A stretch of 64,000 nucleotides of DNA from Achromobacter pulmonis (GTDB lineage Bacteria; Pseudomonadota; Gammaproteobacteria; Burkholderiales; Burkholderiaceae_B), in NCBI RefSeq assembly GCF_902859765.1, contig NZ_CADIJV010000018.1, positions 1 to 64,000 on the forward strand, written 5' to 3'. Below are positions 17,162 to 44,178 of the stretch, one piece after another. The translations under genes were made by a program, and so were the position numbers. Numbering within the stretch: the first letter of the stretch is position 1; each line of letters begins with the position of its first letter. A model generated the notes under the pieces. That model worked only from the letters and a program-made list of their open reading frames with translations. It did no database searches and was not told the origin of the DNA.

Positions 17162-17430
17162 GCCTGGCCATCCTCCCGCGCGCCCAGTCTGCCGCCATCG
17201 CGGCCCCGGCGCCCGGCGTGGCCGCCGCCGTCGGGAAAACCCCCGCGCCGGGGGGGCGTGGACGGTTCTTTTCGAGGTTGGCCGGCCCCGGGGGAAAACC
17301 GCCCTACAATTCCGCCATTCCCGCCGCCGGCGGGAACCTCGCGCCCGCCTGTCATCAGACGGTTTTTCACTAGAAGTACACTCGCGTCCGCCAACCCGGT
17401 CCGATTCGCCTTGCCCCCAGGAGCGCCTGC
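17162..17430. other. Intergenic region before the decarboxylase
   Basis: 269 bases with no credible gene. A TACAAT at 17305 could be a -10 box, but no -35 sits at the right distance. Short GC-rich dyads (CCGCCGGCGG near 17325) are present. The last 15 bases hold the decarboxylase ribosome site (CAGGAG). Confidence 0.4.
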
Positions 17431-19692
17431 ATGAAATTCCGCTTCCCCATCTTCATCATCGACGAGGACTATCGTTCCGAGAACGCGTCCGGTCTGGGTA
17501 TCCGTGCTTTGTCTTCGGCGATCGAGGCCGAGGGCGTCGAGGTGATCGGGGTGACCAGTTACGGCGACCTGAGTTCGTTCGCCCAGCAGCAGAGCCGTGC
17601 CAGCGCCTTCATTCTGTCGATCGACGACGAAGAGTTCGACGTGGACTCGCCCGAGGACGTGGCCAGCGCGATCAAGAACCTGCGCACCTTCATCGGCGAA
17701 CTGCGGTTCCGCAACGCCGACATCCCGATCTACCTGTACGGCGAGACGCGCACCTCGGAGCACATTCCGAACGACATCCTGCGCGAACTGCACGGCTTCA
17801 TCCACATGTTCGAGGACACCCCCGAATTCGTGGCGCGCCACATCATCCGCGAAGCCCGCAGCTATGTGGACAGCCTGCCGCCGCCGTTCTTCCGTGAACT
17901 GGTCAAGTACGCGCAGGATGGTTCCTATTCCTGGCACTGCCCCGGCCATTCGGGGGGCGTGGCGTTCCTGAAGAGCCCGGTGGGCCAGATGTTCCACCAG
18001 TTCTTCGGTGAGAACATGCTGCGCGCCGACGTCTGCAACGCCGTCGACGAACTGGGCCAACTGCTGGACCATACCGGCCCGGTGGCCGAGTCCGAGCTGA
18101 ACGCGGCGCGCATCTTCCACGCCGACCACTGCTTCTTCGTGACCAACGGCACCTCGACCTCGAACAAGGTGGTGTGGCACGCCAACGTCGCCGCCGGCGA
18201 CGTGGTGGTGGTGGACCGCAATTGCCACAAGTCGATCCTGCACGCCATCACCATGACGGGCGCGATCCCGGTGTTCCTGCGCCCGACGCGCAACCACCTG
18301 GGCATCATCGGCCCGATCCCGCTGGAAGAGTTCCACCCGGACAACATCCGCAAGAAGATCGAGGCCAACCCGTTCGCGCGCGAGGCGGTGAACAAGAACC
18401 CGCGCATCCTGACGCTGACGCAGAGCACCTACGACGGCGTGATCTACAACGTCGAGATGATCAAGAAGGAGCTGGGCAGCTACGTCGACACGCTGCACTT
18501 CGACGAAGCCTGGCTGCCGCACGCGTCGTTCCACGAGTTCTATCACGACATGCACGCGATCGGCCAGGACCGCCCGCGCAGCCAGGACGCGATGGTGTTC
18601 GCCACCCACTCCACGCACAAGCTGCTGGCCGGCATCTCGCAGGCCTCGCAGATCATCGTGCAGGAATCCGAGACCCGCAAGCTGGACCGCAACGTCTTCA
18701 ACGAAGCCTACCTGATGCACACGTCGACCTCGCCGCAGTACGCGATCATCGCGTCGTGCGACGTGGCCGCGGCCATGATGGAGCCCCCGGGCGGCACCGC
18801 GCTGGTCGAGGAAAGCATCCGCGAAGCCATGGATTTCCGCCGCGCCATGCGCAAGGTGGAGTCCGAGTTCGGCAAGAACGACTGGTGGTTCAAGGTCTGG
18901 GGCCCGAACCGCCTGGTGTCCGAAGGCATCGGCAACCGCGACGAGTGGATCCTGGAGTCCAACGACCACTGGCACGGCTTCGGCGACCTGGCCGAAGGCT
19001 TCAATATGCTGGACCCGATCAAGGCCACCGTCATCACGCCGGGGCTGGACATGTCGGGCAGCTTCGGCGAAACCGGCATTCCGGCCGCGCTGGTCTCCAA
19101 GTACCTGACCGAGCACGGCGTGGTGGTCGAGAAGACCGGCCTGTATTCGTTCTTCATCCTGTTCACCATCGGCATCACCAAGGGCCGCTGGAACACGCTG
19201 CTGACCGCGCTGCAGCAGTTCAAGGACGACTACGACCGCAATCAGCCGCTGTGGCGCATCCTGCCGGACTTCTGCCGCGGCCATCGGCGCTACGAGCGCA
19301 TGGGCCTGCGCGATCTGTGCCAGCAGATCCACGAGGCCTATCGCGAGCGCGACGTGGCCCGCCTGACCACGGAGATGTACCTGAGCGACATGGTGCCGGC
19401 GCTCAAGCCGTCCGACGCCTTCGCCCGCATGGCCCACCGCGAGGTCGAGCGGGTCGACATCGACCAGCTCGAAGGCCGCGTCACCGGCGTGCTGCTGACG
19501 CCGTATCCCCCGGGCATCCCGCTGCTGATCCCGGGCGAACGCTTCAACCGCACCATCGTCCAGTACCTGCAATTCGCGCGTGAGTTCAACGAACGCTTCC
19601 CTGGCTTCGAAACCTACATCCACGGCCTGGCCGACGAAGTGGGCCCGGACGGCGAGAAGCGTTACTACGTCGATTGCCTGATCGAAGACTGA
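17431..19692 (+). CDS. Arg/Lys/Orn decarboxylase, wing-domain (AdiA/LdcI) type
   Basis: 753 residues, the normal length of this PLP fold-type I family. Residues 1-about 130 are the receiver-like wing domain (IFIIDEDYR, LSIDDEEFD). The PLP part includes SWHCPGHSGGVAFLKSPVG and the cofactor Lys397 in ATHSTHKLLAGISQASQ. These enzymes decarboxylate arginine, lysine or ornithine in the cytosol, consuming a proton; inducible forms aid acid survival and others make polyamines. The substrate cannot be fixed from sequence. No antiporter gene is adjacent. A flavoprotein gene follows after 17 bases. Confidence 0.92.
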   Translation: MKFRFPIFIIDEDYRSENASGLGIRALSSAIEAEGVEVIGVTSYGDLSSFAQQQSRASAFILSIDDEEFDVDSPEDVASAIKNLRTFIGELRFRNADIPIYLYGETRTSEHIPNDILRELHGFIHMFEDTPEFVARHIIREARSYVDSLPPPFFRELVKYAQDGSYSWHCPGHSGGVAFLKSPVGQMFHQFFGENMLRADVCNAVDELGQLLDHTGPVAESELNAARIFHADHCFFVTNGTSTSNKVVWHANVAAGDVVVVDRNCHKSILHAITMTGAIPVFLRPTRNHLGIIGPIPLEEFHPDNIRKKIEANPFAREAVNKNPRILTLTQSTYDGVIYNVEMIKKELGSYVDTLHFDEAWLPHASFHEFYHDMHAIGQDRPRSQDAMVFATHSTHKLLAGISQASQIIVQESETRKLDRNVFNEAYLMHTSTSPQYAIIASCDVAAAMMEPPGGTALVEESIREAMDFRRAMRKVESEFGKNDWWFKVWGPNRLVSEGIGNRDEWILESNDHWHGFGDLAEGFNMLDPIKATVITPGLDMSGSFGETGIPAALVSKYLTEHGVVVEKTGLYSFFILFTIGITKGRWNTLLTALQQFKDDYDRNQPLWRILPDFCRGHRRYERMGLRDLCQQIHEAYRERDVARLTTEMYLSDMVPALKPSDAFARMAHREVERVDIDQLEGRVTGVLLTPYPPGIPLLIPGERFNRTIVQYLQFAREFNERFPGFETYIHGLADEVGPDGEKRYYVDCLIED

Positions 19693-29850: not shown

Positions 29851-29882
29851 CAAAATGAAAGCCGGCGCCCTCGGGCGCCGGC
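29851..29882 (-). terminator. Terminator after the first M81 gene
   Basis: Read on the minus strand, a GCCGGCGCC/GGCGCCGGC stem with a four-base loop is followed by TTTCATTTTG. It lies 21 bases after the M81 stop and would end the long catabolic transcript. Confidence 0.72.
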
Positions 29883-29903
29883 CAGATTGTCGACAAACCG
29901 CCC

Positions 29904-31379
29904 TTAAAGCGGATCGAGCGGGTAGATCGGCCGCCGCACGTGCTTGAAGTCGAGCTGGCCGTAGTCGGAGGTGGTGACGCCGACGCCGGTGCATTCAATG
30001 ATCTCGGTGGCCATGGCCGAGAAGCCGGCGCGCCAATGGATGCGGCTCTTGAGCACCACGTAGCGCTTTTGCAGCGGATCGATGCCGGCCGACAGCAGGC
30101 AATTGATATCGAACGGCTCCTGGTGCCGCGATACCACCACGATCTCGACCCGGCCGGTGTCGATCACGACGGTCAGGCCGGTATCGTTGCGCACGCCGCG
30201 GTACATGGGGCCGCGGTTCAGGTAGACGCCGTCGAACACCAGCTTGACCCGGCCGGTCACGGTCAGCGGCTCGCCGGGCCGGTTGATGGCCGGCATGTCG
30301 ACCTTGCCGCCCAGCGGCAGGGTGATGGTGCTGCCGACGCCGGCCGTGGCGGCCTCGCGCGCCGCCTGCGGGTCGCAGATGGCGTAGAACACCACGTTGT
30401 CCAGTTCCTGGCGCAGCACTTCGGCCAGTACCGCCGTGGTGTCCATGGTGCCGCCGGAGCCGGTGTTGTCGTAGTGATCCAGCAGCACCACCGGCCCTTG
30501 TTCGATGGCCTTGGCGCGGGCGATGGTGGGCGCCAGCGGTTCGGCGTGGAATACCCACTTGGCGCGGTCGGTCCAGGCGCGGTCCAGCAGCTCGTCTCGG
30601 TATTGTTCGGCCTGCGCCAGGTTGGCGTCGGTACAGACCACGGCGCTCAGGCCGGCCTCGCGGATGTCGGCATGCGGAAAGCCGACGAACACCGAGGCCG
30701 CCAGCACGCCCTCGGCTTCCAACTGGCGGCAGCGCTCCTGCAGCGACTTGTTGGGGTCGGCATGGGTGCCCTGGCACATGACGTGCGGCAGCATGGGCTT
30801 GCTGGCCCAGGTCATTACCGGCTTGATCTCGCCCTTGAGCGTGCGCACGATGACGTTGGCCGCGCGCACGCCGGCCTCGCGGATGTCCACGTGCGGGTAG
30901 GTATGGAAGCCGCTGATGACGGTGGCGTTGTCGACGATGTCGGCATAGATGTTGGCGTGCATGTCCAGCGTCACCGCCACCGGGGTCGTGGCGTCGATCG
31001 CGCGCAGGCGGCGCAGCAGGTCGCCCTCGGCGTCTTCCACGCCCTCGGCCACCATGGCGCCGTGCAGGTCCAGCAGGATGGCGTCGTAGCCGCCCTTGCG
31101 GACCTCGTCCAGCACCAATTGGCACAGCCGTTCGTGGGTTTCGGCGCTGGCCGGGCCGCTGGGCCAGGATTCGGCCGCCACCGGCACCACGATCTCGGCG
31201 CCGACGCGGCGCGCCACGTCGATATAACCGCCCAGGCCGCTGTCGGTGTTCTCGTAGGCCCGGATGGCGCGCTCGCCCGCCAGGATTTCAGGGTTGCCGC
31301 GGAAAAAGCGCGCGAGCGGGGTCGGCACGGGCGAAAAGGTATTCGTCTCGTGTTTGATCATTGCCAGAAGCCAACGCAT
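29904..31379 (-). CDS. M81-family metallopeptidase (MlrC-like), copy 1
   Basis: 491 residues. Family marks in order: KHETNTFSP near the N-terminus, LLDLHGAMV, LDMHANIYADIV and FHTYPHVDIREAG. These carry the Glu and His/Asp residues that bind zinc in microcystinase C. A later DHYDNTGSGGTMDTTA is also conserved. M81 enzymes hydrolyse unusual amide bonds; MlrC cuts next to the beta-amino acid Adda in linear microcystin. It is the last gene of the minus-strand catabolic run, 33 bases after the amidase. A second, diverged copy lies at 38092. The actual substrate is unknown. Confidence 0.9.
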   Translation of the reverse strand: MRWLLAMIKHETNTFSPVPTPLARFFRGNPEILAGERAIRAYENTDSGLGGYIDVARRVGAEIVVPVAAESWPSGPASAETHERLCQLVLDEVRKGGYDAILLDLHGAMVAEGVEDAEGDLLRRLRAIDATTPVAVTLDMHANIYADIVDNATVISGFHTYPHVDIREAGVRAANVIVRTLKGEIKPVMTWASKPMLPHVMCQGTHADPNKSLQERCRQLEAEGVLAASVFVGFPHADIREAGLSAVVCTDANLAQAEQYRDELLDRAWTDRAKWVFHAEPLAPTIARAKAIEQGPVVLLDHYDNTGSGGTMDTTAVLAEVLRQELDNVVFYAICDPQAAREAATAGVGSTITLPLGGKVDMPAINRPGEPLTVTGRVKLVFDGVYLNRGPMYRGVRNDTGLTVVIDTGRVEIVVVSRHQEPFDINCLLSAGIDPLQKRYVVLKSRIHWRAGFSAMATEIIECTGVGVTTSDYGQLDFKHVRRPIYPLDPL

Positions 31380-31412
31380 GGAAATTCCTGTGGGTTGCCA
31401 AAGGGGAAAGGA

Positions 31413-32822
31413 TCAGGCGGCCTGGGGCGGCTGCGGCCAGGGATGCTGCGCCGGGCGCATGCGCTCCCAGGCGCGGGCCAGGCGCAGCACACCGAGGTCG
31501 TCGAAGCGGGCGCCGGCGATCTGCAGGCCGATCGGCAGGCCGGCCCGGGTGTAGCCGCAATTGACCGAGGCGGCCGGCTGCTCGCTCATGTTGTAGGGCA
31601 GCGTGTAGCCGATGTGGTGCATGGTGGTGGCGACGTCGTTGGTGGGCGCTGGCCACTCGGCGTTGTAGGCCACTACCGGCGCCACGGGCGACAGCACGTA
31701 GTCGTAGGGTGCGGTGGCGGCGACTGTCCTGGCGCGCACGTTGAGGGTTTCGTAGTAGCTGCGGAACACGTCCTCGCCCGACTGGCCACCGCCGCTTTCG
31801 GCCCAGGCGCGGATGAACGGCAGGATCCGGGCGCGGCGTTCTTCCGGCAGGGCGCCCAGGTCGAGCGCCGAGCGGGTGCGCCAGAAGCGGTCGACCCCTT
31901 CCAGCATCCCCGGCGTCATCCAGGGGGGCAGCGGCGTGACGATGGCGCCAGCCGCCTCGAAGAGGCGCGCCGCCGCTTCAACGGCGCCGCGGATCTCCGG
32001 GTCCAGCGGCAGGCCGCAGCCGGCGTCCAGCTGCAGGCCGATGCGCAGGCCGCGCACGTCGATGTCCAGGTTGAGCCAGTCGAAGTCCTGGAACGGCAGG
32101 CTCATGTGGTCGCGCGCGTCGGGCTGCGACAGCACGCCCATCATGAGCGCGGCGTCGGCGACGTCGCGCGTCATGGGGCCGGCGCAGCGGCCCATGAAGG
32201 GCGGGTCGATCGGGATGCGGCCCAGGCTGGGCTTGAGCGTGGCGATGCCGCACCAGGCGGCCGGCAGGCGCACCGAGCCGCCGATATCGGTGCCGATGTG
32301 CAGCGGGCCGTAGCCCGCCGCCGCGGCCGCGCCGGCGCCGGCGCTGGAGCCGCCGGGGTTCTTGGACAGGTCCCAGGGGTTGCGCGTCAGCGCATGGAAG
32401 CTCGACAGGCCGGACGACAGCATGCCGTAGTCGGGCATGGTGGTCTTGCCCAGCACCACGGCGCCGGCCTCGCGCATGCGCGCCGCCGGCGGGGCGTCGG
32501 CCGTGGCCGGCGTCAGGTCGGTGGCGGCGGTGCCCAGCGGCACCGGCACGCCGCGCGTGGCGATGTTTTCCTTGATGGTGGCGGGCACGCCGTCCAGCGA
32601 GTAACCGCCGCAGGCCAGCGGCTCGCCTTTCATCCAGCGCGCCTCGGAGGCGCGGGCCGAGGCCAGCGCCTGGTCGGGATCGAGCGCATAGGTGGCGTGG
32701 ATGTGCGGCTCCCAGCGCGCGATGTGATCGAGCACCGAGCGCGTCGCCTCGACCGGCGACAGGGTCTTGTTGCGATAGGCGGCCAGCAGTTCCTGGGCCG
32801 AGAGTTCATGCGGTTGCGACAT
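31413..32822 (-). CDS. Amidase-signature family amidohydrolase
   Basis: 469 residues from ATG 32822; a TTG four codons upstream is less likely. The Ser-cisSer-Lys triad is visible: Lys in VPATIKENIATRG, cis-Ser and nucleophile Ser in GGSSAGAGAA and TDIGGSVRLPAAWCG. Amidase-signature enzymes cleave simple amides, carbamoyl groups or amino-acid amides in the cytosol. It sits between the transporter ATPase gene (47 bases) and M81 copy 1, so a role in breaking down the imported substrate is inferred. The substrate cannot be read from the sequence. Confidence 0.93.
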   Translation of the reverse strand: MSQPHELSAQELLAAYRNKTLSPVEATRSVLDHIARWEPHIHATYALDPDQALASARASEARWMKGEPLACGGYSLDGVPATIKENIATRGVPVPLGTAATDLTPATADAPPAARMREAGAVVLGKTTMPDYGMLSSGLSSFHALTRNPWDLSKNPGGSSAGAGAAAAAGYGPLHIGTDIGGSVRLPAAWCGIATLKPSLGRIPIDPPFMGRCAGPMTRDVADAALMMGVLSQPDARDHMSLPFQDFDWLNLDIDVRGLRIGLQLDAGCGLPLDPEIRGAVEAAARLFEAAGAIVTPLPPWMTPGMLEGVDRFWRTRSALDLGALPEERRARILPFIRAWAESGGGQSGEDVFRSYYETLNVRARTVAATAPYDYVLSPVAPVVAYNAEWPAPTNDVATTMHHIGYTLPYNMSEQPAASVNCGYTRAGLPIGLQIAGARFDDLGVLRLARAWERMRPAQHPWPQPPQAA

Positions 32823-32869
32823 GGCGGATTCCAATTGCGGGGGGATGCCTGGGTGTTACGTGGGCGCCC

Positions 32870-34561
32870 TCAGGCGGCGGGGGCTGCCAGTCCGGCCGCC
32901 ACGGGCCGGAAATTGCGGAAGTCCCAGTCGCGTCCGGGCGCCGCGTCGATCAGGGCGCGGGTGTATTCGTGGCGGGGGTCGGTCAGCACGGCCTGCGCGG
33001 CGCCGGTCTCGACGACCTTGCCGCGCTGCATGACCATGATGGTGTCGCAGATCTGCGCGGCCACGCGCAGGTCATGCGTGATGAACAGCACGCCCACCCC
33101 GGTGCGCTCGCGCACCTGTTCGAGCAATTCCAGCACCTGCGCCTGCACCGACACGTCCAGCGCCGACACGGCTTCGTCGGCCACCAGGATCTCCGGGTCC
33201 ATCACCAGCGCGCGGGCGATGCAGATACGCTGGCGCTGGCCGCCCGAGAACTGGTGCGGGTAGCGCCGCATGGCGTCGGGACTCAGGCCGACCACGGACA
33301 GTGTCTCGCCGGCGCGGCGCTCCGCCTGGTCGCGCGGCACGCCGAAATTGAGCAGGCCTTCGATGATGGACTCGCCCACGGTGCGGCGCGGGTTGAGCGA
33401 GCGGTACGGGTCCTGGAACACGATCTGGATGCGGCGGCGCACCGGACGCAGGGCCGCGCCGGACAGGGTGCTGAGGTCCTCGCCGCCCATCATCATGTGC
33501 CCGGCGGTGGGTTCGATCAGGCGCACGATGCAGCGCGCCACGGTCGACTTGCCCGAACCGGATTCGCCGACGATGCCCAGGATCTCGCCCTTGCGCAGCG
33601 TCAGGTTGACGTCGGCCGCGGCGATCACGTTCTGCGGCGCGCGGCGCGAGAACAGCGAACCCTTGCCGCCGTAGGTGCGGCCCAGGCCCTTGACGTGCAG
33701 CACCGGCTGGCCGGCGGGCGCCTCGCGGTGCGACGGCACCAGGCTGGGCACCGATGACACCAGGCGCCGCGTGTACGACTGCTTGGGCTCGGCCAGGATC
33801 TCGTTGCGCGTGCCGCTTTCGATCAGGTCGCCGCGGTTCATCACCACGATGCGGTCGGCGATCTCGGCCACCACGCCGAAATCGTGCGTGATGAACAGCA
33901 CGGCGGTCTGGTGCTTGAGCTGCAGTTCCTTGATCAGCAGCAGGATCTGCTTTTGCGTGGTGACGTCCAGCGCCGTGGTCGGCTCGTCGGCGATCAGCAG
34001 CTTGGGTTCCAGGATCAGCGCCATGGCGATCACGATGCGCTGGCGCTGGCCGCCCGAGAGCTGGTGCGGATAGGCGTCGTAGATACGTTCGACATCGGGC
34101 AGGTGCACCGAGCGGAACATCTCCAGCACCTTGGCGCGGCGTTCGGCGGCCGACATGCGGCGATGCAGCCGCAGCACTTCGTCGACCTGCTTGCCGACGG
34201 TGTGCACGGGATTGAGCGCGGTCATGGGTTCCTGGAACACCATTGCCATGCGGGTGGCGCGCAATTCGCGCAGGCGGCGCGGCGTGGCATTGGCCACCTC
34301 CTCGCCTTCGACGCGGATCGACCCCGCGCTGATGCGCAGCACGCCCGGCGGCAACAGGCCCATGACGGCCAGCGAGGTGACCGACTTGCCCGAGCCGGAC
34401 TCGCCGACCACGCACACGGTTTCGCCGGCGTTCACATCCAGGCTCAGGTTGCGCACCACGCGGTTGCCGGCGCCGCCAACCTCCACCGACAGGTTGCGGA
34501 TGGCCAGCACGGCGGACGAGGCATCGCCCGCGGGGGGAGTGGGAGAATAAGTCATCGGCAT
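32870..34561 (-). CDS. Dpp/Opp-type ABC importer, fused dual ATP-binding protein
   Basis: 563 residues from the ATG at 34561 (MPMTYS), which overlaps the upstream permease stop as TGATG; ATG 34555 is an alternative. Two complete nucleotide-binding domains: the first with GESGSGKSVTS, LSGGQRQRIVIAMAL and LLIADEPTTALDV, the second with GESGSGKSTVARC, FSGGQRQRICIARAL and ILVADEAVSALDV. It corresponds to DppD and DppF joined in one chain, common in proteobacterial peptide/opine/glutathione importers. It powers uptake through the two permeases upstream. Confidence 0.95.
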   Translation of the reverse strand: MPMTYSPTPPAGDASSAVLAIRNLSVEVGGAGNRVVRNLSLDVNAGETVCVVGESGSGKSVTSLAVMGLLPPGVLRISAGSIRVEGEEVANATPRRLRELRATRMAMVFQEPMTALNPVHTVGKQVDEVLRLHRRMSAAERRAKVLEMFRSVHLPDVERIYDAYPHQLSGGQRQRIVIAMALILEPKLLIADEPTTALDVTTQKQILLLIKELQLKHQTAVLFITHDFGVVAEIADRIVVMNRGDLIESGTRNEILAEPKQSYTRRLVSSVPSLVPSHREAPAGQPVLHVKGLGRTYGGKGSLFSRRAPQNVIAAADVNLTLRKGEILGIVGESGSGKSTVARCIVRLIEPTAGHMMMGGEDLSTLSGAALRPVRRRIQIVFQDPYRSLNPRRTVGESIIEGLLNFGVPRDQAERRAGETLSVVGLSPDAMRRYPHQFSGGQRQRICIARALVMDPEILVADEAVSALDVSVQAQVLELLEQVRERTGVGVLFITHDLRVAAQICDTIMVMQRGKVVETGAAQAVLTDPRHEYTRALIDAAPGRDWDFRNFRPVAAGLAAPAA

Positions 34562-35466
34562 CAGATCCTGCGCACCATTTTCGGGTCGAGGGCGTCGCGC
34601 AGCGCGTCGCCCAGGATGTTCACGCTGAGCACGGTCAGCGACAGGAACAGGCCCGGGAACAGGATCAGGCCGGGCAGCATGCGGAAGTACATGCGGCCTT
34701 CGGACATGATGTTGCCCCACGAGGCGATCTCGGGCGGGATGCCCGCGCCCAGGAAACTCAGGATGGCCTCGGTCAGCATGGCCGAGGCGAACACATAGGT
34801 GCCCTGCACGGTCAGCGGCGCGATGGTGCTGGGCACCATGTGGCGCCACAGCAGCAGCGGCAGTGGCGTGCCGAGGGCCAGGGCGGCCTCGACGTAGGGT
34901 TCGCCGCGCACGCTCAGGATCTGGCCGCGCACCAGACGCACCACCCGCGGCACCTCGGGAATGGTGATGGCCACCAGCACCGTCGTCAGGCTGGCGCCGG
35001 TGACGGAGACCAGCGCGATCGCCAGCAGGATGCCGGGGATCGCCATGATGGCGTCCATGGTGCGCATGATGAGGCCGTCGAGCGAGCGGAACCAGCCGGC
35101 GATGACGCCGACCACCAGCCCGATGGTGACGCTGACGACCGCCGCGCCCAGGCCCGCGATCAGCGACGTCTGGGCGCCATAGGCCACGCGCGACCAGACG
35201 TCGCGGCCGAAGGCGTCGGTGCCGAACAGGTACTCGGTGAACGGCTGCTTCAGGCGCGCGCCGGGATTGAGCAGAGTCGGGTCGACCGTGCCCAGGTACG
35301 GCGCGAACAGGGCCATGCCGATGATGGCGACCAGCACCACCAGGGCCAGCATGACCGGCCAGCTCTTGAGGCCGTGGCGGATCTGGCGCCAGGCGGTGAC
35401 GTGGGGCGTGCCGCCGCCGGGAAGGTCGGCGGCCGCTTGCGCGGCGGCGTCGGTTGGCGTTTGCAT
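34561..35466 (-). CDS. Dpp/Opp-type ABC permease (DppC-like)
   Basis: 301 residues with six membrane segments. The N-terminal extra segment (about 35-55) is followed by GTDAFGRDVWSRVAYGAQTS, the hallmark of the C-type permease, then the EAA coupling loop near VRGQILSVRGEPYVEAALALG. It forms half of the inner-membrane channel together with the DppB-like protein. It overlaps the ATPase gene at its stop and follows the DppB-like gene after 9 bases. Confidence 0.95.
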   Translation of the reverse strand: MQTPTDAAAQAAADLPGGGTPHVTAWRQIRHGLKSWPVMLALVVLVAIIGMALFAPYLGTVDPTLLNPGARLKQPFTEYLFGTDAFGRDVWSRVAYGAQTSLIAGLGAAVVSVTIGLVVGVIAGWFRSLDGLIMRTMDAIMAIPGILLAIALVSVTGASLTTVLVAITIPEVPRVVRLVRGQILSVRGEPYVEAALALGTPLPLLLWRHMVPSTIAPLTVQGTYVFASAMLTEAILSFLGAGIPPEIASWGNIMSEGRMYFRMLPGLILFPGLFLSLTVLSVNILGDALRDALDPKMVRRI

Positions 35467-35475
35467 GGCGTGGCC

Positions 35476-36417
35476 TCAGTATCGGATACGGGGGTCGAAC
35501 ACCGTGTAGGCGCAATCGACAACCAGATTGATGAAGACGTAGACGAAGGCGAAGAACAGCGTCAGGCCCTGGATGACGGGATAGTCGCGCGCCAGCACGG
35601 CTTCCACCACCAGCCGGCCCACACCGGGGATGTTGAACACCGACTCGGTCACCACCACGCCGCTGATCAGCAGCGCGATGCCCAGGCCCACCACCGTGGC
35701 GATGGGCACGGCGGCATTGCGCAACGCATGGCCGAGCAGCACGCCGGTCTCGGTCAGCCCCTTGGAGCGCGCGGTGCGGATGAAGTCTTCGCCCATCACC
35801 TCGATGACGCTGGTGCGCGTGATGCGGGCGATCAGCGCGATGTAGACCGTGGACAGCGCCAGCGACGGCAGGATCAGCCGGTGCAGGAACAGCCAGAAGC
35901 CGTTGGCCAGCGGCGTGTAGCCCTGCACGTTGAACCAGCCCAGCTTGATGGCGAAGGCCCAGATCAGCAGGTAGCCGGTGACGAACACCGGCACCGAGAA
36001 GCCCAGCACCGAAAAGCCCATGACGGCGCGATCGAGCAGCCGGCCCTGGCGCCAGGCCGCCAGCACGCCCAGCGGAATCGCCACGATCAGCGTGAAAACC
36101 AGCGTCAGCAGCGCCAGGCTCAGCGACGGTTCGAGGCGCTGGCCGATGAGCTGGGTGACCGGCACGCCGGACATCAGCGAAGTGCCCAGGTCGCCCTGCA
36201 GCAGCTTGCCGCCCCATATGAAGAACTGCTTGACCACCGGCTGGTCCAGGCCCATCGTCTGGCGGATCTGCTCGATCCGTTCGGGCGTGGCGCCGTCGCC
36301 CGCCATGATGATGGCCGGATCACCCGGGCTCAGACGCAATATCGCAAAGACCACCACCGCGACCATCACCAGAACGGGGATGGTCGCGAGGAGCCGGCGT
36401 GAGACGAATGCCAGCAT
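35476..36417 (-). CDS. Dpp/Opp-type ABC permease (DppB-like)
   Basis: 313 residues and six membrane segments. It begins MLAFVSRRLLATIPVLVMV, then RLSPGDPAIIMAGDGATPE and GDLGTSLMSGVPVTQLI, all standard for B-type permeases. The coupling loop is MGEDFIRTARSKGLTETGVL. The order substrate-binding protein, B permease, C permease, ATPase is the common one for peptide-type importers. It lies 26 bases after the binding-protein gene. Confidence 0.95.
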   Translation of the reverse strand: MLAFVSRRLLATIPVLVMVAVVVFAILRLSPGDPAIIMAGDGATPERIEQIRQTMGLDQPVVKQFFIWGGKLLQGDLGTSLMSGVPVTQLIGQRLEPSLSLALLTLVFTLIVAIPLGVLAAWRQGRLLDRAVMGFSVLGFSVPVFVTGYLLIWAFAIKLGWFNVQGYTPLANGFWLFLHRLILPSLALSTVYIALIARITRTSVIEVMGEDFIRTARSKGLTETGVLLGHALRNAAVPIATVVGLGIALLISGVVVTESVFNIPGVGRLVVEAVLARDYPVIQGLTLFFAFVYVFINLVVDCAYTVFDPRIRY

Positions 36418-36443
36418 GCATTTCCCCCTGAACTACTTGCCCG

Positions 36444-38009
36444 TCAAGGGGCTTTTTTCACATTCCAGAACGCGAACACCGGCGCGTGCACCAGGCCCGA
36501 GAGCTTGGTCGAGTAGACGGTGGGCACGGACATCTGGCCCAGCGGCACGTACAGGCCTTCATCGATGCCGATGCGCTGCAATTCATCGGCGATCTTCTTC
36601 TGCTCGGCCGGGTCGGAGGTCAGCGCGAACTTGGTGCGCAGTTCCTCGACTTGCGGGAAGTCGGGCCAGCCGAACCAGGCGTTGTCGCCGTTGGCCGCGG
36701 CCGGGGCCGAGCGCACCGGGTCCATCACGTCGGTGGCGTACCAGTTGGTGTTGTGGATGTTCCAGCCGCCTTCGGCCGGCGCCGCCTTGGAGGCGCGGCG
36801 GGTGGCCACGCTCTGCCAGTCCATCGCCGCCAGGTTGACGTTGAAGCCGGCCTTGCGCAGCGCCTGGGCCATCACCACCGGCTGGGCCGACAGCGTGCCG
36901 ACGTCGGTGGCATGCATCATCAGGATCGGGGTGTTGTCGTAGCCGGCTTCCTTGAGCAGGGCCTTGGCCTTCTCGATGTTCGAGGGCACCACGATGTCCT
37001 TGCCGATGTCCGACTCCAGCGGCGTGCCGCAACCCCACAGCGAGGCGCAGGTCTTCCAGTACTTGGGATTGCCCACCAGCGCCTTCATCACGTCTTCCTG
37101 GCCGATGGCGTACATCGCGGCCTGGCGGATCTTCTTGTTGTTGAAGGGCGGGTACTTGAAGTTGAAGCGGTACATCGTGAAGTAACCGACCGGACTGAGC
37201 GATTCTTCCTTCAGGTCCTTGTTGCCCTCGACCATCGGCAGCAGGTCGTAGGGGAACTGCTCGACGAAGTCGATTTCACCGCCGAGCAGGGCGTTGGCGG
37301 TGGTCAGGGCGTCGGGCATCACGTCCCATTCGACCTTGTCCACGTTGACCACCTTGCCGCCGGCCAGGCCACTGGCCGGTTCCTTGCGTGGCACGTAGTC
37401 GGTGTTTTTGACGTAGACGGTCTTCACGCCCGGCTTGAATTCGGCAACCTTGAACGGGCCCGAGCCGGTCATGTCGGTGATCGGCTTGCCGACAGGCTGT
37501 TCGGCGATGCGCTTGGGCATCATGAACGGCGCGGTGCCGGTGGGCTTGGACAGGGCGCGCAGCGCCAGGTCCGTGGGTTCTTTCATGACGATGCGGAAGC
37601 TCTTGTCGTCGATGACTTCGATCTTGTCGGTGAATTTCAGCAGGGTGCGGCCCATGCCGTCGCCCGCCGCCCAGCGCTTGATCGACGCGACGCAGTCCTC
37701 GGCCGTGACCGGCTTGCCGTCGTGCCATTTCTGGCCCGGGCGCAGGGTCATGGTGTAGGTCTTGCCGTCGGCCGAGACATCCCATTTTTCCAGCATCTGC
37801 GGCTGGATCTTGTTGTCGGCGTCAGTGGCCAGCAAGGTGTCGTAGATCATGTAGCCGTGCCACGTCGTGATGTACGCGGTGGTGGCGTGCGGATCGGTCA
37901 GGCGCAGCGGCGAATGCATCACCGCCTTGATGACGGTTTCGGCGTAGGCGCCATGCGCCATCAGCAGGGTGGCGCCGGCGAATGCGGCCGCGCGGACGAA
38001 CTTGAGCAT
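36444..38009 (-). CDS. Periplasmic solute-binding protein of a peptide-type ABC importer (SBP family 5)
   Basis: 521 residues. The signal peptide is residues 1-23, cut after GAYA. The mature protein shows DGKTYTMTLRPGQKWHDGKPVTAEDCVASIKRW, split here as YTMTLRPGQKWHDG and PVTAEDCVASIKRW, the family signature, and later NPKYWKTCASLWGCG with a likely disulfide. It captures the substrate in the periplasm and sets the specificity of the importer. Members of this subgroup bind peptides, glutathione, opines or other N-linked small molecules; this one cannot be narrowed further. It follows M81 copy 2 after 82 bases. Confidence 0.94.
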   Translation of the reverse strand: MLKFVRAAAFAGATLLMAHGAYAETVIKAVMHSPLRLTDPHATTAYITTWHGYMIYDTLLATDADNKIQPQMLEKWDVSADGKTYTMTLRPGQKWHDGKPVTAEDCVASIKRWAAGDGMGRTLLKFTDKIEVIDDKSFRIVMKEPTDLALRALSKPTGTAPFMMPKRIAEQPVGKPITDMTGSGPFKVAEFKPGVKTVYVKNTDYVPRKEPASGLAGGKVVNVDKVEWDVMPDALTTANALLGGEIDFVEQFPYDLLPMVEGNKDLKEESLSPVGYFTMYRFNFKYPPFNNKKIRQAAMYAIGQEDVMKALVGNPKYWKTCASLWGCGTPLESDIGKDIVVPSNIEKAKALLKEAGYDNTPILMMHATDVGTLSAQPVVMAQALRKAGFNVNLAAMDWQSVATRRASKAAPAEGGWNIHNTNWYATDVMDPVRSAPAAANGDNAWFGWPDFPQVEELRTKFALTSDPAEQKKIADELQRIGIDEGLYVPLGQMSVPTVYSTKLSGLVHAPVFAFWNVKKAP

Positions 38010-38091
38010 GAAATTCCCCTTTTATGCGGAGTGAGCGGCGTGTCTGCCGCTACGTCGTTGACACGCCGCGCCAAGGAGCGGCGTGCGAGGG

Positions 38092-39597
38092 TCAGTCGGC
38101 TGCGGCACCGGCGAAGACCGGGCCGCAAGGCGCCATTCTGATGCCGGGACGCAAGCGTGTCCATGGTTGTTTTGCCGCATCCATCAGCATCGAGCCCGGC
38201 GCGGCGCAAACCAGGATCGTGTGGGCGATCGGTGTGAAGTCGGCACGGAAATGCGCCGAGCTTTTCACCGCCAGGATGGCCGCGCGGCGCGGCTCGATGC
38301 CGGCGAAACGGAACATCTCCTGGTCGGCCATCTGCACCTTGTTGGAGGCCACCACGATGCGCACGCCGCCGATGCGCAGACAGGCGCTGGGGCCCAGGTC
38401 CATGTGGAAGCCGCGGTAGAACGCGCCGTGCGTGTCGAAGCGCCCATCCGAAGTTTTCTCCACGATGAACTCTGCGTCTAGCGGTTCGTCGTCGGGAATA
38501 CCCGAGTGTCCACCCAATGCAATGCGGACCGATTTACCCACGCCGGCGCGGTGCGCGGCCAGCGCCGCTTCCGGATCGACGATCAGGCCGATGGCGGCGT
38601 CGCGCACCTGGTGGCGGATCAGCGCGCGCAGCAGGCCGGTGGTGTCGGAACTGCCGCCGGCGCCAGGGTTGTCCTGCGCGTCCGCGATGATCACGGGCGC
38701 ATTGGCCTCGCGCGCCAGGCGCAGGGCGGTGGTGATCGCATCATCCGGTGTGTAGAGCGTGCCACCGAAATCACGCTCGGCATCGAGCACGGCGCGCGCC
38801 AGGGTGTCGGCGGCCGCGTCGGCGTCGGCCTGGGTCGCGCCGTAGGCCCAGACCGCGGGCAGGCAATCGGGAAAATCCGCCGCCGGGAAACCGGTGGCCA
38901 GCGACACGCTGTGGGCGCCGCGCGCCTCGATGTCGCCCACCATCTGGTAGAGCGAGCGCGCCGGTTCGATGTCGGTCGATTGCCAGCACAACGGGATCAG
39001 GAAGGGCAGCTGTCGCAGCGCCACGCAGGGACGCGGCGCGCCGGCCAGGCGCCGCGCCAGCAGCGCGGCGGCGCGCTGGCCGGTTTCGGCCATGTCGATG
39101 TGCGGATAGGTGCGATAGCAGACCAGCGCGTCGGCATGGCGCACCATCGCCGGCGTCATGTTGGCGTGCAGGTCGAGGCTGGCCACTACCGGCACGTTGG
39201 GGCCGACCAGGTCGCGTACGCGTTTGAGCAGTTCGCCTTCGCCGTCGTCCAGGTGCTCGGTGACCATGGCGCCGTGCAGGTCGAGATAGACGCCGTCCAG
39301 CGGCATGGCCGCTTGCAGGCCGTGCAGGATCAGCGCGCTGATGCGTTCGAACGCATCCTCGGTGACCGGGCCGGACGGGCTGGCCGCGGCCCAGGTGGAC
39401 GGCAGCAGCGTGTGCTGTTGCATGGCCTCGATGAAGCCGGCCACCGGAATGTTGGCGCCGGCCACGGCCGGGAACAGCGCCGGGCCGCTGACCAGCTTCG
39501 GCCAGCCGCCGCCCTTGTCGGCGAAGTCTTCCCAGGCCGCGCGCGAGGGCGCGAAGGTATTCGTTTCATGCTGAAAGCCGCCGATCCCGATGCGCAT
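38092..39597 (-). CDS. M81-family metallopeptidase (MlrC-like), copy 2
   Basis: 501 residues, paralogue of the gene at 29904. It has QHETNTFAP, YLDLHGAMV, LDLHANMTPAMV and YRTYPHIDMAETG, so the zinc-site residues appear intact. The distal motif is DAQDNPGAGGSSDTTG where copy 1 has DHYDNTGSGGTMDTTA, and the histidine before TYPH is Arg here, hinting at a different substrate pocket. Its place between the semialdehyde dehydrogenase gene and the importer genes suggests the imported compound contains an amide bond that M81 enzymes can cut. Confidence 0.9.
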   Translation of the reverse strand: MRIGIGGFQHETNTFAPSRAAWEDFADKGGGWPKLVSGPALFPAVAGANIPVAGFIEAMQQHTLLPSTWAAASPSGPVTEDAFERISALILHGLQAAMPLDGVYLDLHGAMVTEHLDDGEGELLKRVRDLVGPNVPVVASLDLHANMTPAMVRHADALVCYRTYPHIDMAETGQRAAALLARRLAGAPRPCVALRQLPFLIPLCWQSTDIEPARSLYQMVGDIEARGAHSVSLATGFPAADFPDCLPAVWAYGATQADADAAADTLARAVLDAERDFGGTLYTPDDAITTALRLAREANAPVIIADAQDNPGAGGSSDTTGLLRALIRHQVRDAAIGLIVDPEAALAAHRAGVGKSVRIALGGHSGIPDDEPLDAEFIVEKTSDGRFDTHGAFYRGFHMDLGPSACLRIGGVRIVVASNKVQMADQEMFRFAGIEPRRAAILAVKSSAHFRADFTPIAHTILVCAAPGSMLMDAAKQPWTRLRPGIRMAPCGPVFAGAAAD

Positions 39598-39675
39598 CAG
39601 GATTCCCCTTATTGTGTGTCTTTCGGCAAAACCCCGGCCGCTTTGCGGCTCGGGGCGGTGAGAGCGTCTACATGA

Positions 39676-41172
39676 TTACTTGGCCACCGGCATGGTGAAT
39701 TCCGCACCCTTTGCGATGCTGTCCGGCCAGCGCTGCATCACGCTCTTGTAGCGTGAGTAGAAGCGGATGCCTTCCTCGCCGTAGGCGTGGTGGTCGCCGA
39801 ACAGCGAGCGCTTCCAGCCGCCGAACGAGTGCCAGGCCATCGGCACCGGGATCGGCACGTTGATGCCGACCATGCCGACCTTGATCTGGCGGGCGAAGGC
39901 GCGCGCCACGCCGCCATCGGAGGTGAAGCAGGCCACGCCGTTGCCGAACTCGTGCGCGTTGATCAGTTCGACCGCGGCGGCGAAGTCGGGCACGCGCACC
40001 ACGCACAGCACCGGTCCGAAGATCTCTTCGCGGTAGATGTTCATCGTGGGCTTGACCTGGTCGAACAGCGTGCCGCCCAGGAAGAAGCCCTTCTCGGCGC
40101 CCGGCACCTGCAGGCCGCGGCCGTCGACCACCAGTTCGGCGCCGGCGGCGATGCCATCCTCGATATAGCCGATGACCTTGTTGCGGTGCTGCGCGGTGAC
40201 GAGCGGGCCCATCTCGGCATCGCCCTGCATGCCATCCTTGACCACCAGGGCCTTGACGCGCGGCGTCAGGCGTTCGATCACCTTGTCGGCCACGTCGCCC
40301 ACCGCCACGGCCACCGAGATCGCCATGCAGCGCTCGCCGGCCGAGCCATAGGCCGCGCCCATCAGCGCGTCGGTGACCTGGTCGAGGTCGGCGTCGGGCA
40401 TCACCACCAGGTGGTTCTTGGCGCCGCCCAGGGCCTGCACGCGCTTGCCGCGACGGGTGCCTTCGGCATAGATGTATTCGGCGATCGGGGTCGAGCCGAC
40501 GAAGGACAGGGCCTCGACGTCGGGGTGTGCGATCAGCGCGTCCACGGCCTGCTTGTCGCCGTGCACGACGTTGAACACGCCCGGCGGCAGGCCGGCTTCG
40601 GTCAGCAGCTCGGCCAGGCGCAGCGAGGCCGAGGGATCGCGTTCGGACGGCTTGAGCACGAAGGTATTGCCGCAGGCGATGGCCACCGGGAACATCCAGC
40701 ACGGCACCATCATCGGGAAGTTGAACGGCGTGATGCCGGCCACCACGCCCAGCGCCTGGCGCATGCTCCAGTTGTCGATGCCGCCGCCGATCTGGTCGGA
40801 ATACTGGCCCTTGAGCAGTTGCGGAATGCCGCAGGCGAATTCGACGATCTCGATGCCGCGCATCACTTCGCCCTTGGCGTCCGAGAACACCTTGCCGTGC
40901 TCGCGGGTGATCAGCTCGGCCAGTTCGTCCTGATGCTGGTCCAGCAGCGCCTTGAAGTTGAACAGCACGCGGGCGCGCTTGAGCGCCGGGGTTTCCGACC
41001 AGGCGGGAAAGGCGGCCTTGGCCGCCGCCACCGCCAGCGCGACTTCATCGGGCGAGGCCAGCGGCACCGAGGAGATGATCTCGCCGGTGGCCGGATTGAA
41101 GCCGTCGGCGTAGCGGCTGCTGCGGCCGTCGTAGGGCTGGCCGTTGATGTAGTGGGAGAGGTTCTTCTTCAT
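39676..41172 (-). CDS. mmsA: Methylmalonate-/malonate-semialdehyde dehydrogenase (CoA-acylating)
   Basis: 498 residues from ATG 41172 ([12 protein letters not shown]). It oxidises malonate or methylmalonate semialdehyde to acetyl-CoA or propionyl-CoA with loss of CO2 and reduction of NAD+. The catalytic Cys is residue 282 in [35 protein letters not shown] and [16 protein letters not shown] are typical of MmsA/IolA. It lies 92 bases after the aminotransferase gene whose product, malonate semialdehyde, is its substrate, so the pair forms a beta-alanine or 3-aminoisobutyrate pathway. Confidence 0.94.
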
Positions 41173-41264
41173 GGGTAAAGCCCGGTTCTTTGAAAATGCC
41201 GGAGGGCGACCCGGGGCCGCCCGCCGTTGTGTGCGATGCGCGGCGTCTGGCGCCGCGCCGGAGG

Positions 41265-42590
41265 TTACGCGACTTCCTTGAGCACCTTGCCGATCTGCTC
41301 GAAGATCTGGCCGATCTGCGCTTCTTCGATGATCAGCGGGGGCGAGACGGCGATGATGTCGCCGGTGTAGCGCACCATCAGGCCGCTGTCGAAGCATTTC
41401 TGGAACACTTCGGCGGCGCGCGCGCCCGGCGCGCCGGCGCGCGGCGCCAGCTCGATACCGGCCACCAGGCCCAGGTTGCGCACGTCGATCACATGCGGCG
41501 CGCCCTTCAGGCTGTGGGCGGCCTGTTCGAAGGCGCCGGACAGCTTGCGGGCGCGGGCGAACAGGTCTTCGCGGCGGTAGATGTCGAGCGTGGCCAGGAT
41601 GGCGGCGGCCGCCAGCGGGTGGGCCGAATAGGTGTAGCCGTGGAAGAACTCGATGCCGCCGGCCGGGCCATTGACGATGGCGTCATGCACTTCGCGGCGC
41701 ACCGCGACGGCGCCCGCCGGCACGGCGGCGTTGCTGACGCCCTTGGCCATGGCGATCAGGTCCGGCGTGACGCCGAAGAATTCCGACGCGGTGGCCGCGC
41801 CCAGGCGGCCGTAGGCGGTGATGACTTCGTCGAAGATCAGCAGGATGCCGTGCTTGGAGGTGATCTCGCGCAGCTTTTCCAGGTAGCCCTTGGGCGGGAT
41901 CAGCACGCCGGTGGAGCCGGCCATGGGCTCGACGATGACCGCGGCGATGGTCGAGGCGTCGTGCAGCGCGATGATGCGTTCGAGTTCGTCGGCCAGATGC
42001 GCGCCCCAGGCCGGCTGACCCTTGGAATAGGCGTTCTGTTCCAGGTTGTGCGTATGGGGCAGGTGGTCCACGGCGGGCAGCAGCGCGCCGGAGAAGGTCT
42101 TGCGGTTGGTCGAGATGCCGCCCACCGAGATGCCGCCGAACCCCACGCCGTGGTAGCCGCGCTCGCGGCCGATCAGGCGGGTGCGCTGGCCGTCGCCGCG
42201 GGCGCGGTGATAGGCCAGGGCGATCTTCAGGGCGGTGTCGACCGATTCCGACCCCGAGTTGGTGAAGAACACGCGGTCCAGGCCCTGCGGCATGAAGCTG
42301 GCGACGGCGGTGGCCGCTTCGAATGCCAGCGGGTGGCCGAGCTGGAAGCCGGGCGCGTAGTCCATGATGCCGGCCTGGCGCGAGATCGCCTCGACGATCT
42401 CCTGGCGGCCGTGGCCGGCGTTGACGCACCACAGCCCGGCCGTGCCGTCCAGCACCTGGCGGCCGTCGGCCGAGGTGTAATACATGCCCTTGGCCGACGC
42501 CAGCATGCGCGGGTGCGCCTTGAATTGCTTGTTGGCGGTGAAAGGCATCCACAGATGGGACAGGTCGGGCAACTCGGCGGGGGCGTTCAT
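41265..42590 (-). CDS. Omega-amino acid:pyruvate aminotransferase (class III)
   Basis: 441 residues from ATG 42590, with TGGAG 5-9 bases upstream; longer in-frame starts run into the regulator. It is a class-III PLP aminotransferase. [32 protein letters not shown] and [17 protein letters not shown] match beta-alanine:pyruvate transaminases (BauA-like). The PLP lysine is residue 283 in [16 protein letters not shown]. It turns beta-alanine or similar omega-amino acids plus pyruvate into malonate semialdehyde plus alanine. It is the first gene of the minus-strand run, divergent from the MocR regulator. Confidence 0.93.
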
Positions 42591-42713
42591 GGTGGCTCCA
42601 GGGCAGGGACAAGCGCCGGGCCTGCGCCAAGTGGGGCGGGCAGCCGGCGGGATGCGATTGATTCTGGTCCGTCCTGGGGCGAATGAAAATATACAATCCG
42701 CGCAAACCGGGCT

Positions 42714-42746
42714 AACTGTATAGTTGCAGGCATGGCAACTGTACAG
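42714..42746. promoter_or_regulatory. Probable MocR operator: repeated AACTGTAYAG in the divergent promoter
   Basis: AACTGTATAG (42714-42723) recurs as AACTGTACAG (42737-42746), 23 bases apart, about two helical turns. The same bases also form an inverted repeat, TGTATAGTTGC and GCAACTGTACA, with one mismatch and a seven-base loop. MocR regulators often bind direct repeats near their own gene. The site is 14 bases before the regulator start and faces the aminotransferase gene. Confidence 0.6.
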
Positions 42747-42759
42747 ATAACGTAGCGTC

Positions 42760-44178
42760 GTGATCGACTTCCAGCCTGTGCGCGCCCGTGGCCAGGCGCC
42801 GACCCTGGTGGACCAGGTGGTGGCGGCCGTGCTGCGCGCCATCGAGGCGCAATTGCTGCGTCCGGGTATGTCCCTACCTTCGGTGCGCGAGTTTGCCCGC
42901 CAGCACCAGGTCAGCACCTTCACCGTGGCCAGCGCCTACAGCCGGCTGGTGTCGCTGGGCTGGCTGGCGGCGCGGCCGGGCGCCGGCTACCGGGTGGCCT
43001 CGCCCGATGCGCCGGCACGCCGTGGCGAGCCGCAGTCGTGGGAGCCGCCGCGCCTGAATGCGGCCTGGCTGCTGTCGGACATCTTCGCGGACCATTCCAT
43101 CCCCATCAAATCGGGCTGCGGCTGGTTGCCGGGCGAATGGCTCAATGAAGAGGGGCTGCACATGGCGCTGCGCCACATGGGCCGGGTGCCGGCCATGCGC
43201 ATTGCCAACTACGGCCATCCCTATGGGTACGCGCCGCTGCGCGAAACCATCGCCGCCACGCTCGGCGCGCAGGGGATGGAGGTCGAGGTGTCGCAGGTGC
43301 TGCTGACCCAGGGCGTGACGCACGGGCTCGACATGGTGATCCGCACCTTGCTGCGGCCGGGCGACACCGTGCTGGTCGAGCAGCCGGCCTATGCCAACCT
43401 GCTGCAGATGCTGCGGCTGGCCGGCTTGCGGGTGGTGCCGGTGCCGCGCACCCTGGACGGCCTCGATTGCGAGGCGCTGGAGCAGGCCGCCTCGCAGCAC
43501 CGGCCGCGCGCGCTGTTCGTCAACACCGCCCTGCAGAACCCGTCCGGCGCCAGCATCAGCATGGCCAATGCCTTCCGCATCCTGCAACTGGCCGAACGCC
43601 ATGGTCTCTGGGTGATCGAGGACGATATCTCGCGCGAACTGGCGCCGGGCGTGACGCCCATGCTGGCGGCGCTGGATGGCGGCCGCCGGGTGGTCTATCT
43701 GGGCGGCTATTCCAAGGTCATCAGCCCGTCGGTGCGGGTCGGCTACGTGGTGGCGCACCGCGACCTGGTGCGCGACATCGCACGCACCAAGATGGCGGTG
43801 GGGCTGACCTCGCCGGAGATCATGGAGCGCATCGTGCACCAGGTCATCCGCGAGGGCCGCTATCGTGCCCACATCGAACGCACCCGCGAACGGCTGGCCC
43901 AGGCCCACGCGTCGGTGGCGGAGCTGATGGCGCAGCATGGTTTCGAGATCTATGCGCGGCCCCGGGCCGGCCTGTTCCTGTGGGCCAAGGTGGCCGGCCA
44001 GTGGCGCGAGCGCGGCGCCAACGGCCTGGCCGGATTGGCGCTCAAGGATGGTATCTGGCTGGCGCCGGGCTCGTATTTCGAGGCCGATGAGGCCGATACG
44101 CCGTGGGTGCGCTTCAACGTGGCGTATTCGGAAGCGCCGGCCCTGTGGCGCTTCATGCGCAACGCGGGCGCGGTCTGA
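42760..44178 (+). CDS. MocR-family regulator (GntR wing-helix plus aminotransferase-like domain)
   Basis: 472 residues from a GTG at 42760. Residues 1-about 80 are a GntR-type DNA-binding domain (SLPSVREFARQHQVSTFTVASAYSRL). Residues about 100-472 are an aminotransferase fold with the PLP lysine at 319 in LGGYSKVISPSVRVGYV. MocR proteins sense an amino compound through PLP and usually activate a divergent catabolic gene. It is transcribed away from the aminotransferase gene, and the repeats between the two starts are its likely binding site. Confidence 0.92.
   Translation: MIDFQPVRARGQAPTLVDQVVAAVLRAIEAQLLRPGMSLPSVREFARQHQVSTFTVASAYSRLVSLGWLAARPGAGYRVASPDAPARRGEPQSWEPPRLNAAWLLSDIFADHSIPIKSGCGWLPGEWLNEEGLHMALRHMGRVPAMRIANYGHPYGYAPLRETIAATLGAQGMEVEVSQVLLTQGVTHGLDMVIRTLLRPGDTVLVEQPAYANLLQMLRLAGLRVVPVPRTLDGLDCEALEQAASQHRPRALFVNTALQNPSGASISMANAFRILQLAERHGLWVIEDDISRELAPGVTPMLAALDGGRRVVYLGGYSKVISPSVRVGYVVAHRDLVRDIARTKMAVGLTSPEIMERIVHQVIREGRYRAHIERTRERLAQAHASVAELMAQHGFEIYARPRAGLFLWAKVAGQWRERGANGLAGLALKDGIWLAPGSYFEADEADTPWVRFNVAYSEAPALWRFMRNAGAV

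Follow-up and report, generated by a model that had tools for sequence, protein, structure and literature searches.

What does Achromobacter pulmonis take up and break down with a block of ten genes in which two peptidases of family M81, the family of MlrC, stand together with a complete importer, an amidase and an omega-amino acid aminotransferase? The block lies at positions 29,904 to 44,178 of the window, that is, the whole stretch of 64,000 nucleotides analysed here (contig NZ_CADIJV010000018.1 of assembly GCF_902859765.1, positions 1 to 64,000). With moderate confidence, we propose that it serves the uptake and hydrolysis of amide-bound beta-amino acids, which would feed the aminotransferase AptA and the dehydrogenase MmsA. 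An earlier note, made from the sequence alone, had placed ten genes here, and their coordinates were confirmed, with nine genes on the minus strand and a divergent mocR on the plus strand. Start codons are our choice, and the intergenic gaps calculated from the coordinates range from 5 to 92 bases across the nine-gene run. The ten genes are as follows.

29904..31379, minus strand: M81a, MlrC-family metallopeptidase, 491 amino acids (PF07364 309 bits, PF07171 175 bits)
31413..32822, minus strand: amidase-signature amidase, 469 amino acids (NF005450 778 bits, cut-off 458)
32870..34555, minus strand: fused two-domain importer ATPase, DppD-DppF-like, 561 amino acids (two ABC_tran and two oligo_HPY stretches)
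34561..35466, minus strand: importer permease, DppC/OppC type (PF00528 above the gathering score, PF12911 slightly below it)
35476..36417, minus strand: importer permease, DppB/OppB type (PF00528, PF19300)
36444..38009, minus strand: family-5 solute-binding protein, 521 amino acids (PF00496 263 bits)
38092..39597, minus strand: M81b, MlrC-family metallopeptidase, 501 amino acids (PF07364 354 bits, PF07171 205 bits)
39676..41172, minus strand: mmsA/oapD, coenzyme A (CoA)-acylating (methyl)malonate-semialdehyde dehydrogenase, MMSDH (TIGR01722 705 bits, cut-off 448.5)
41265..42590, minus strand: aptA/oapT, omega-amino acid:pyruvate aminotransferase (NF052567 727 bits, cut-off 500)
42760..44178, plus strand: mocR/oapR-like regulator, GntR domain and aminotransferase fold (PF00392, PF00155)

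The proposed route would begin with the import of a small peptide-like or amidated compound by the family-5 binding protein, the two permeases and the fused ATPase. In the cytoplasm, M81a and M81b may then cut the amide bond beside a beta-amino acid, as MlrC does on the beta-amino acid Adda, and the amidase may remove an amide or a second acyl group. As is known for their families, AptA would transfer the amino group of beta-alanine, 3-aminobutyrate or 3-aminoisobutyrate onto pyruvate, and MmsA would convert the semialdehyde, where it is a substrate, to acetyl- or propionyl-CoA. The MocR regulator would sense the free beta-amino acid, like OapR of Cupriavidus necator, at an operator between mocR and aptA. 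It is because the partner enzymes in the window are AptA and MmsA that a beta-amino acid is proposed, and beta-aminoacyl peptides or amides, such as beta-alanyl dipeptides, appear to be the most likely class of substrate.

AptA, MMSDH and the amidase all exceed NCBI curated cut-offs, and the solved structures closest to AptA are beta-alanine/omega-amino acid:pyruvate transaminases. The genome holds a single AptA at expectation (E) values up to 1e-120 and two MMSDH genes above the cut-off. The name Dpp-type, first given to the importer, is upheld at the superfamily level and fails for DppA proper, as the binding protein scores 62 bits with the DppA model NF043070 (cut-off 1005). The closest solved relative of the binding protein is 8vdx from Bordetella bronchiseptica (E 1.6e-94); its structural model is poor (predicted local distance difference test, pLDDT, 64), and no pocket was read from it. 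The MocR protein stays below the cut-offs of the GabR model (116 bits, cut-off 600) and of PdxR (255 of 320). A supply of beta-alanine from pyrimidines was considered and rejected: the best match in the genome to the dihydropyrimidinase model TIGR02033 has 73.9 bits (curated cut-off 393), and beta-alanine is therefore not expected from uracil by that route.

Conservation of the block and forms of the aptA slot

In all 25 full-length Achromobacter loci compared by tblastn, the ten genes stand in the same order between thyA-folA and ydgA, a count that is conditional on M81b, by whose presence these loci were selected. Two loci on cut contigs, L011 and L018, were excluded from the 25, and the permease and ATPase identities of L018 are odd (52% and 46%); here and below, L, G and g numbers label the loci, genomes and genera of the present analysis. 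Among the seven Achromobacter genomes of the family sample, G045 lacks M81b and has the other nine genes (L071), so that the full nine-gene run is present in 25 of the 26 loci compared. The window is part of an Achromobacter chromosome, and M81b is 96-97% identical to its closest named relatives in A. dolens, A. ruhlandii and A. insuavis. Each of the nine genes is under purifying selection, with ratios of nonsynonymous to synonymous substitution rates (dN/dS) of 0.07-0.15 in three pairwise comparisons. Because of these ratios and of the order kept in all 25 loci, the gene block is not a chance grouping. A search for the same gene set in other genomes, as had been proposed for this locus, thus found both the order and the linkage of aptA, mmsA, importer and M81 to be kept.

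Outside Achromobacter, the same order and strand are found in the Bordetella-type genera g15 and g36 and in genus g9. M81a is present at 80% identity or more in 19 of 151 family genomes, each with AptA (81-100%) within about 10 kb, and the two are linked in 10 of the 12 genomes of g15 and g36. Eleven Bordetella loci lack the amidase; L048 additionally lacks mmsA, and L034 is cut before mocR. The binding proteins linked to aptA form a single clade (support 100/100, 21 rows).

Nested smaller forms occur at the same slot, as seen in 20 aptA-centred loci chosen by eye from the family sample. The smallest form has aptA and no mmsA match of 45% (nine loci: L076, L081-L088), and the next has aptA-mmsA with neither importer nor M81 (six loci: L077-L080, L089, L090). 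The importer and M81a follow in four loci (L072-L075) and the amidase in one more (L071), and the form of the window is that of L071 with M81b placed between mmsA and the binding-protein gene. Such a series could reflect growth as well as loss, and no direction is claimed. M81b itself may have been lost in L071-L075, since its closest outside relative sits in L091 with M81a and near-sister importer proteins.

Other arrangements were also observed. L091 (positions 3707-18500, G128) carries three tandem binding-protein genes, a gamma-glutamyltransferase, two M81a and one M81b, and the M81b and the importer of the window have close outside relatives in this locus. L111 has no importer; its M81a (64%) directly borders a convergent MocR gene, and the distance from this M81a to an AptA equivalog is 2.6 kb. 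For six M81a relatives from outside the family (51-59%), the retrieved stretches hold neither importer nor aptA.

The M81 enzymes and their cassettes elsewhere

Both M81 Pfam domains are above the gathering score in M81a and in M81b, and the two proteins align with MlrC over residues 2-490 (E 1.9e-49) and 61-466 (E 7.5e-52), respectively. A recent duplication was ruled out, as they are only about 32% identical to each other and belong to two deep clades of the M81 tree (quick method, long branches flagged, two duplicate loci omitted). In the parts of the literature used here, MlrC frees Adda, an N-terminal beta-amino acid, by hydrolysing the Adda-Glu bond alone, and the hexapeptide left over stays uncut (PMC4810221), which backs what the earlier note had stated about cleavage beside Adda; the enzyme is predicted to be cytoplasmic (PMC12474180). 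No reaction in print was found for any M81 enzyme besides MlrC in the open-licence literature searched, where M81 turned up in passing outside work on microcystin. M81 genes are nevertheless common, with M81b relatives in 493 records of plasmids alone.

The MlrC zinc ligands E39, D167, H169 and H191 (from PMC9982164, which gives H196 at one place and H191 at others) are retained as E11, D139, H141 and H163 in M81a and as E11, D142, H144 and H166 in M81b, and they are invariant across 16 aligned M81 sequences, MlrC itself among them. MlrC residues H133, D332 and K464 are also kept, and W59, F67, F96, E70 and S392 are missing from both proteins in the alignment. At the Adda-pocket positions, which fall in a gappy region of the alignment, W59 is replaced by I32 (M81a) or L35 (M81b), F67 by A41 or A44, and F96 by E70 or A71. 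As the zinc ligands are kept and the Adda-pocket residues lost, the substrate of M81a and M81b is likely other than microcystin. A microcystin pathway was also rejected on other grounds, as the ten genes include neither MlrA nor MlrB and both enzymes fall short of the MlrC model NF041767 (180 bits for M81a and 194 for M81b, cut-off 999). The AlphaFold model of M81a (pLDDT 85) adopts the MlrC fold, matching 7ylq and 3iuu with template modelling (TM) scores of 0.68-0.79 (0.77 with chain A and 0.68 with chain B of 7ylq).

M81 genes beside an importer were also found away from aptA. The cassette set comprised 34 loci, each having a binding protein plus an M81 of 45% or more, five aptA-slot and three duplicate loci being omitted; removal of two more aptA-slot loci (L048, L050) left 32, among which near-identical loci remain. 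As these loci were found through similarity to M81b or M81a, the set is conditional on M81. Within 12 kb, the partners were DsdA (13 loci), M20 aminoacylase (9), amidase (7), ArgE-type enzymes (4), gamma-glutamyltransferase (2), a kinase of the APH family with a class III aminotransferase (2) and GabT (1), and five loci had none of these. In the family sample, M81b matches of 55-64% occur at 20 places. DsdA stands in line with the importer at nine of these, which come from five genera, and within 8.2 kb on the opposite strand at two further ones. On the binding-protein tree (54 rows), the six partner labels require 6 changes, against a minimum of 5 and a mean of 29 after shuffling, a clustering that is inflated by near-copies. 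With partner labels assigned by hand, as on the M81 tree, importer-protein clades track the partner enzymes. Given that these partner modules handle unusual (beta-, D- or N-acyl-) amino acids, and given the chemistry of MlrC, M81 enzymes may open amide bonds that ordinary peptidases leave.

Among the partners, the M20 aminoacylases, present in 9 of the 32 loci outside the aptA slot, are consistent with a different route in the block. There, the beta-amino acid would lie on the amine side of the bond, as in N-acetyl- or N-carbamoyl-beta-alanine or pantothenate-like amides, and the amidase and the M81 enzymes would strip the acyl group. The aptA slot of L076 points the same way: here the genes downstream of mocR encode an importer of Liv type, a hydrolase of the hydantoinase/carbamoylase family (TIGR01879 422 bits, cut-off 204) and an M81. 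However, MlrC cuts on the carboxyl side of its beta-amino acid (PMC4810221, PMC12474180), and the ten genes of the block include no carbamoylase; we regard this route as unlikely.

Several side observations concern M81 genes and their neighbours. The closest amidase outside Achromobacter among the retrieved loci (63%, above the same cut-off) is that of Pseudodonghicola (L043), and it lies 2.7 kb from another importer-M81b cassette. The window genome has another M81 (G000:C3:207007-208497, L053), 53% identical to M81b, that adjoins a transporter of the major facilitator superfamily (MFS); plasmids of Caballeronia, Rhodococcus and Streptomyces carry such a pair as well (L062, L065, L066, L069). 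Its fourth M81 (G000:C37:41247-42713, L054), 39% identical to M81a, is near a urea/amide-type binding protein, and its relatives in L113, L114 and L076 are also accompanied by a carbamoylase-type hydrolase (tested for L113 and L076). In L103 (449-3185) and L042 (634-3084), the APH-family kinase and the class III aminotransferase, which are the halves of PRK06148, lie upstream of M81-importer cassettes, and we take them to be hydroxylysine or phosphoethanolamine-type enzymes. L064 (Rhizobium sp. NLR16a p4, 3671-19488) combines an M20, an M24 distantly like DoeA, two M81, an importer, a class III aminotransferase and an aldehyde dehydrogenase.

Regulation and transcript structure

Further features lie in the intergenic spaces and at the end of the block.

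42691..42697: ATACAAT element, TATA-like on the aptA strand, strongly conserved upstream of aptA (mocR-aptA gaps aligned from 54 loci, a few of them duplicated)
42714..42746: likely MocR operator, direct repeat AACTGTAYAG with a 23-bp period, between mocR and aptA
42716-42746: 12-7-12 imperfect inverted repeat within the operator
39632..39655, minus strand: terminator-like hairpin followed by TTTT, between mmsA and M81b (fold -18.9 kcal/mol)
29860..29883, minus strand: terminator-like hairpin after M81a, at the end of the block (10-pair stem, T-rich tail)

The site between mocR and aptA is likely the operator of the MocR protein. No second site in the genome matches it with three or fewer mismatches, 100 shuffled versions of the window gave a mean of 0 occurrences of the motif, and its halves can be recognised upstream of aptA in importer-less loci as well. 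Betaproteobacterial OapR is described with operators of this kind, consisting of direct repeats plus an inverted one (PMC5320631). The hairpin between mmsA and M81b was found by folding, and a consensus terminator scan gave no match there. Similar hairpins lie in several Achromobacter and Bordetella gaps, those at the same position in Bordetella L026 and L032 being clearer and with longer T runs, and some aptA-mmsA gaps also hold hairpins. In the scanned Bordetella loci, no hairpin was found after M81a, except for a weak one in L050.

The block might therefore be read, given the hairpin after mmsA, as two adjoining units. In that case, aptA-mmsA would burn beta-alanine as in C. necator, and the genes from M81b through the importer and amidase to M81a would be an independent operon for peptide use that has a separate promoter and yields something else, such as a D-amino acid. 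Cassettes of importer and M81 do stand elsewhere alone or beside DsdA, and 14 of the 20 chosen aptA-centred loci have aptA, with or without mmsA, and neither importer nor M81. Against such a division, gene order and strand are shared by Achromobacter, g15/g36 and g9, the importers linked to aptA are a clade of their own, and in L072 a gap of about 2 nt (extrapolated ends) separates mmsA from the binding-protein gene. On balance, we find two independent units improbable.

Uptake and hydrolysis of amide-bound beta-amino acids, the function that we favour for the block, has other evidence to contend with. Since M81-importer cassettes also lie beside DsdA, M20 or other enzymes, M81 alone is not specific for beta-amino acids, and, judging by the titles of solved relatives, opines and metal chelates are also among the ligands of family-5 binding proteins. 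Where MlrC has its proposed base, E70, the alignment, gappy in this region, shows N44 in M81a and G47 in M81b. The linkage of M81 to aptA is limited to a few related genera: at least 21 of 109 AptA-bearing genomes, counted by eye, have an M81 within 15 kb, and none was present in the three annotated alphaproteobacterial AptA plasmid loci or in the one Caballeronia locus. Even in g15 and g36, two of the 12 genomes are without importer and M81a (L077, L081), and L072 has both and no mocR match. Finally, the importer and M81 genes may form a transcript separate from aptA-mmsA. The earlier proposal that the block takes up and burns a compound holding a beta- or omega-amino acid is retained as far as it draws on conserved order and linkage; it can no longer lean on the M81 genes by themselves, and the hairpin between mmsA and M81b makes a single transcript uncertain.

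Relation to described systems

The core of the block is already known. By its description, the OapR-OapTD system of C. necator (H16_A0271-A0273; PMC7057948, PMC6572756) has the same divergent MocR, AptA followed by MmsA, and repeat operator, whereas no genes for an importer, an amidase or an M81 belong to the operon as described there. OapR responds to beta-alanine (Km 201 uM), 3-aminobutanoate and isoserine (PMC7057948). An omega-transaminase of Alcaligenes (now Achromobacter) denitrificans, likened here by description, acts on aliphatic beta-amino acids (PMC3281772). The microcystin pathway (MlrA-D) shares with the block a cytoplasmic M81 zinc peptidase that frees a beta-amino acid and a clustered transporter (PMC12474180), which in that pathway is the MFS protein MlrD and here is an ATP-binding cassette (ABC) importer.

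In Bordetella, a MocR paralogue (GabR-type) was predicted in 2016 to govern gabT2-dppABCD, read as a locus for the use of gamma-aminobutyrate (GABA) (PMC5320631). With a MocR-type regulator, a class III aminotransferase and a Dpp-like importer in common, it may be the same locus as the block, which would then feed GABA-type compounds; section 13 of that paper is without mention of M81, amidase or MmsA. We give this reading very little credence, as the aminotransferase is above the AptA cut-off and scores 173.5 bits with the GabT model TIGR00700 (cut-off 506.65), so that true GabT-GabD identity was rejected, the true GabT is elsewhere in the genome (603 bits), and the partner dehydrogenase is MMSDH rather than GabD. 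The gabT2-dpp locus was not matched in the 11 of 16 extra binding-protein places examined in ten genomes (L138-L147), where the partners included an amidohydrolase (L140), amidases (L144, L145, L147) and other M81 genes (L142-L144, L146). In L138 (12563-14029, G148), a dihydropyrimidinase above the curated cut-off adjoins another subtype of the same importer (57%), and L145 has a class III aminotransferase 36% identical to a Rhizobium one.

Two other published gene groups are similar in part. Bphy_7644-7651 of Paraburkholderia phymatum, on pBPHY02 (L061, 3541-12695), likewise clusters a Dpp-like importer, an M81 and a class III aminotransferase, and differs in its importer, which is distant (permease 33%), and in the aminotransferase, which is 34% identical to AptA (298 bits against 500 needed). 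Its expression in nodules is NifA-dependent, seven of the genes dropping by 2.5-4.1 log2 in nifA-mutant nodules (PMC8305402). In Arthrobacter sp. Helios, of another phylum, the adjacent tags ArtHe_12365-12370 include an M81 and a D-serine ammonia-lyase, induced 59- and 8-fold under polyethylene glycol drought stress (PMC9608346); no AptA-MmsA is named in the part of that paper used here, and the two genes are a published yet unremarked M81-DsdA pair. The earlier note had treated these parts as not described together. This does not hold for mocR-aptA-mmsA (OapR-OapTD, PMC7057948) or for an aminotransferase with dppABCD under a MocR (PMC5320631), and, within the literature searched, it does hold for the full combination. 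The pair of conserved M81 clades and the pattern of partner enzymes are likewise without precedent in that literature.

Beyond this block, we tentatively suggest that M81 is a general bacterial family that opens amide bonds in which a non-standard (beta- or D-) amino acid takes part and that forms, with a matched family-5 importer, a plug-in cassette whose neighbouring enzyme module, whether AptA-MmsA, DsdA, an M20 aminoacylase, an APH kinase with an aminotransferase or a gamma-glutamyltransferase, would indicate the amino acid released, the Achromobacter block being the beta-amino-acid version. If this is true, the neighbouring enzymes would amount to a list of predicted, assayable substrates for the family, and the block would represent a catabolic route for beta-peptides or beta-amides, with new beta-aminopeptidases for beta-peptide degradation.

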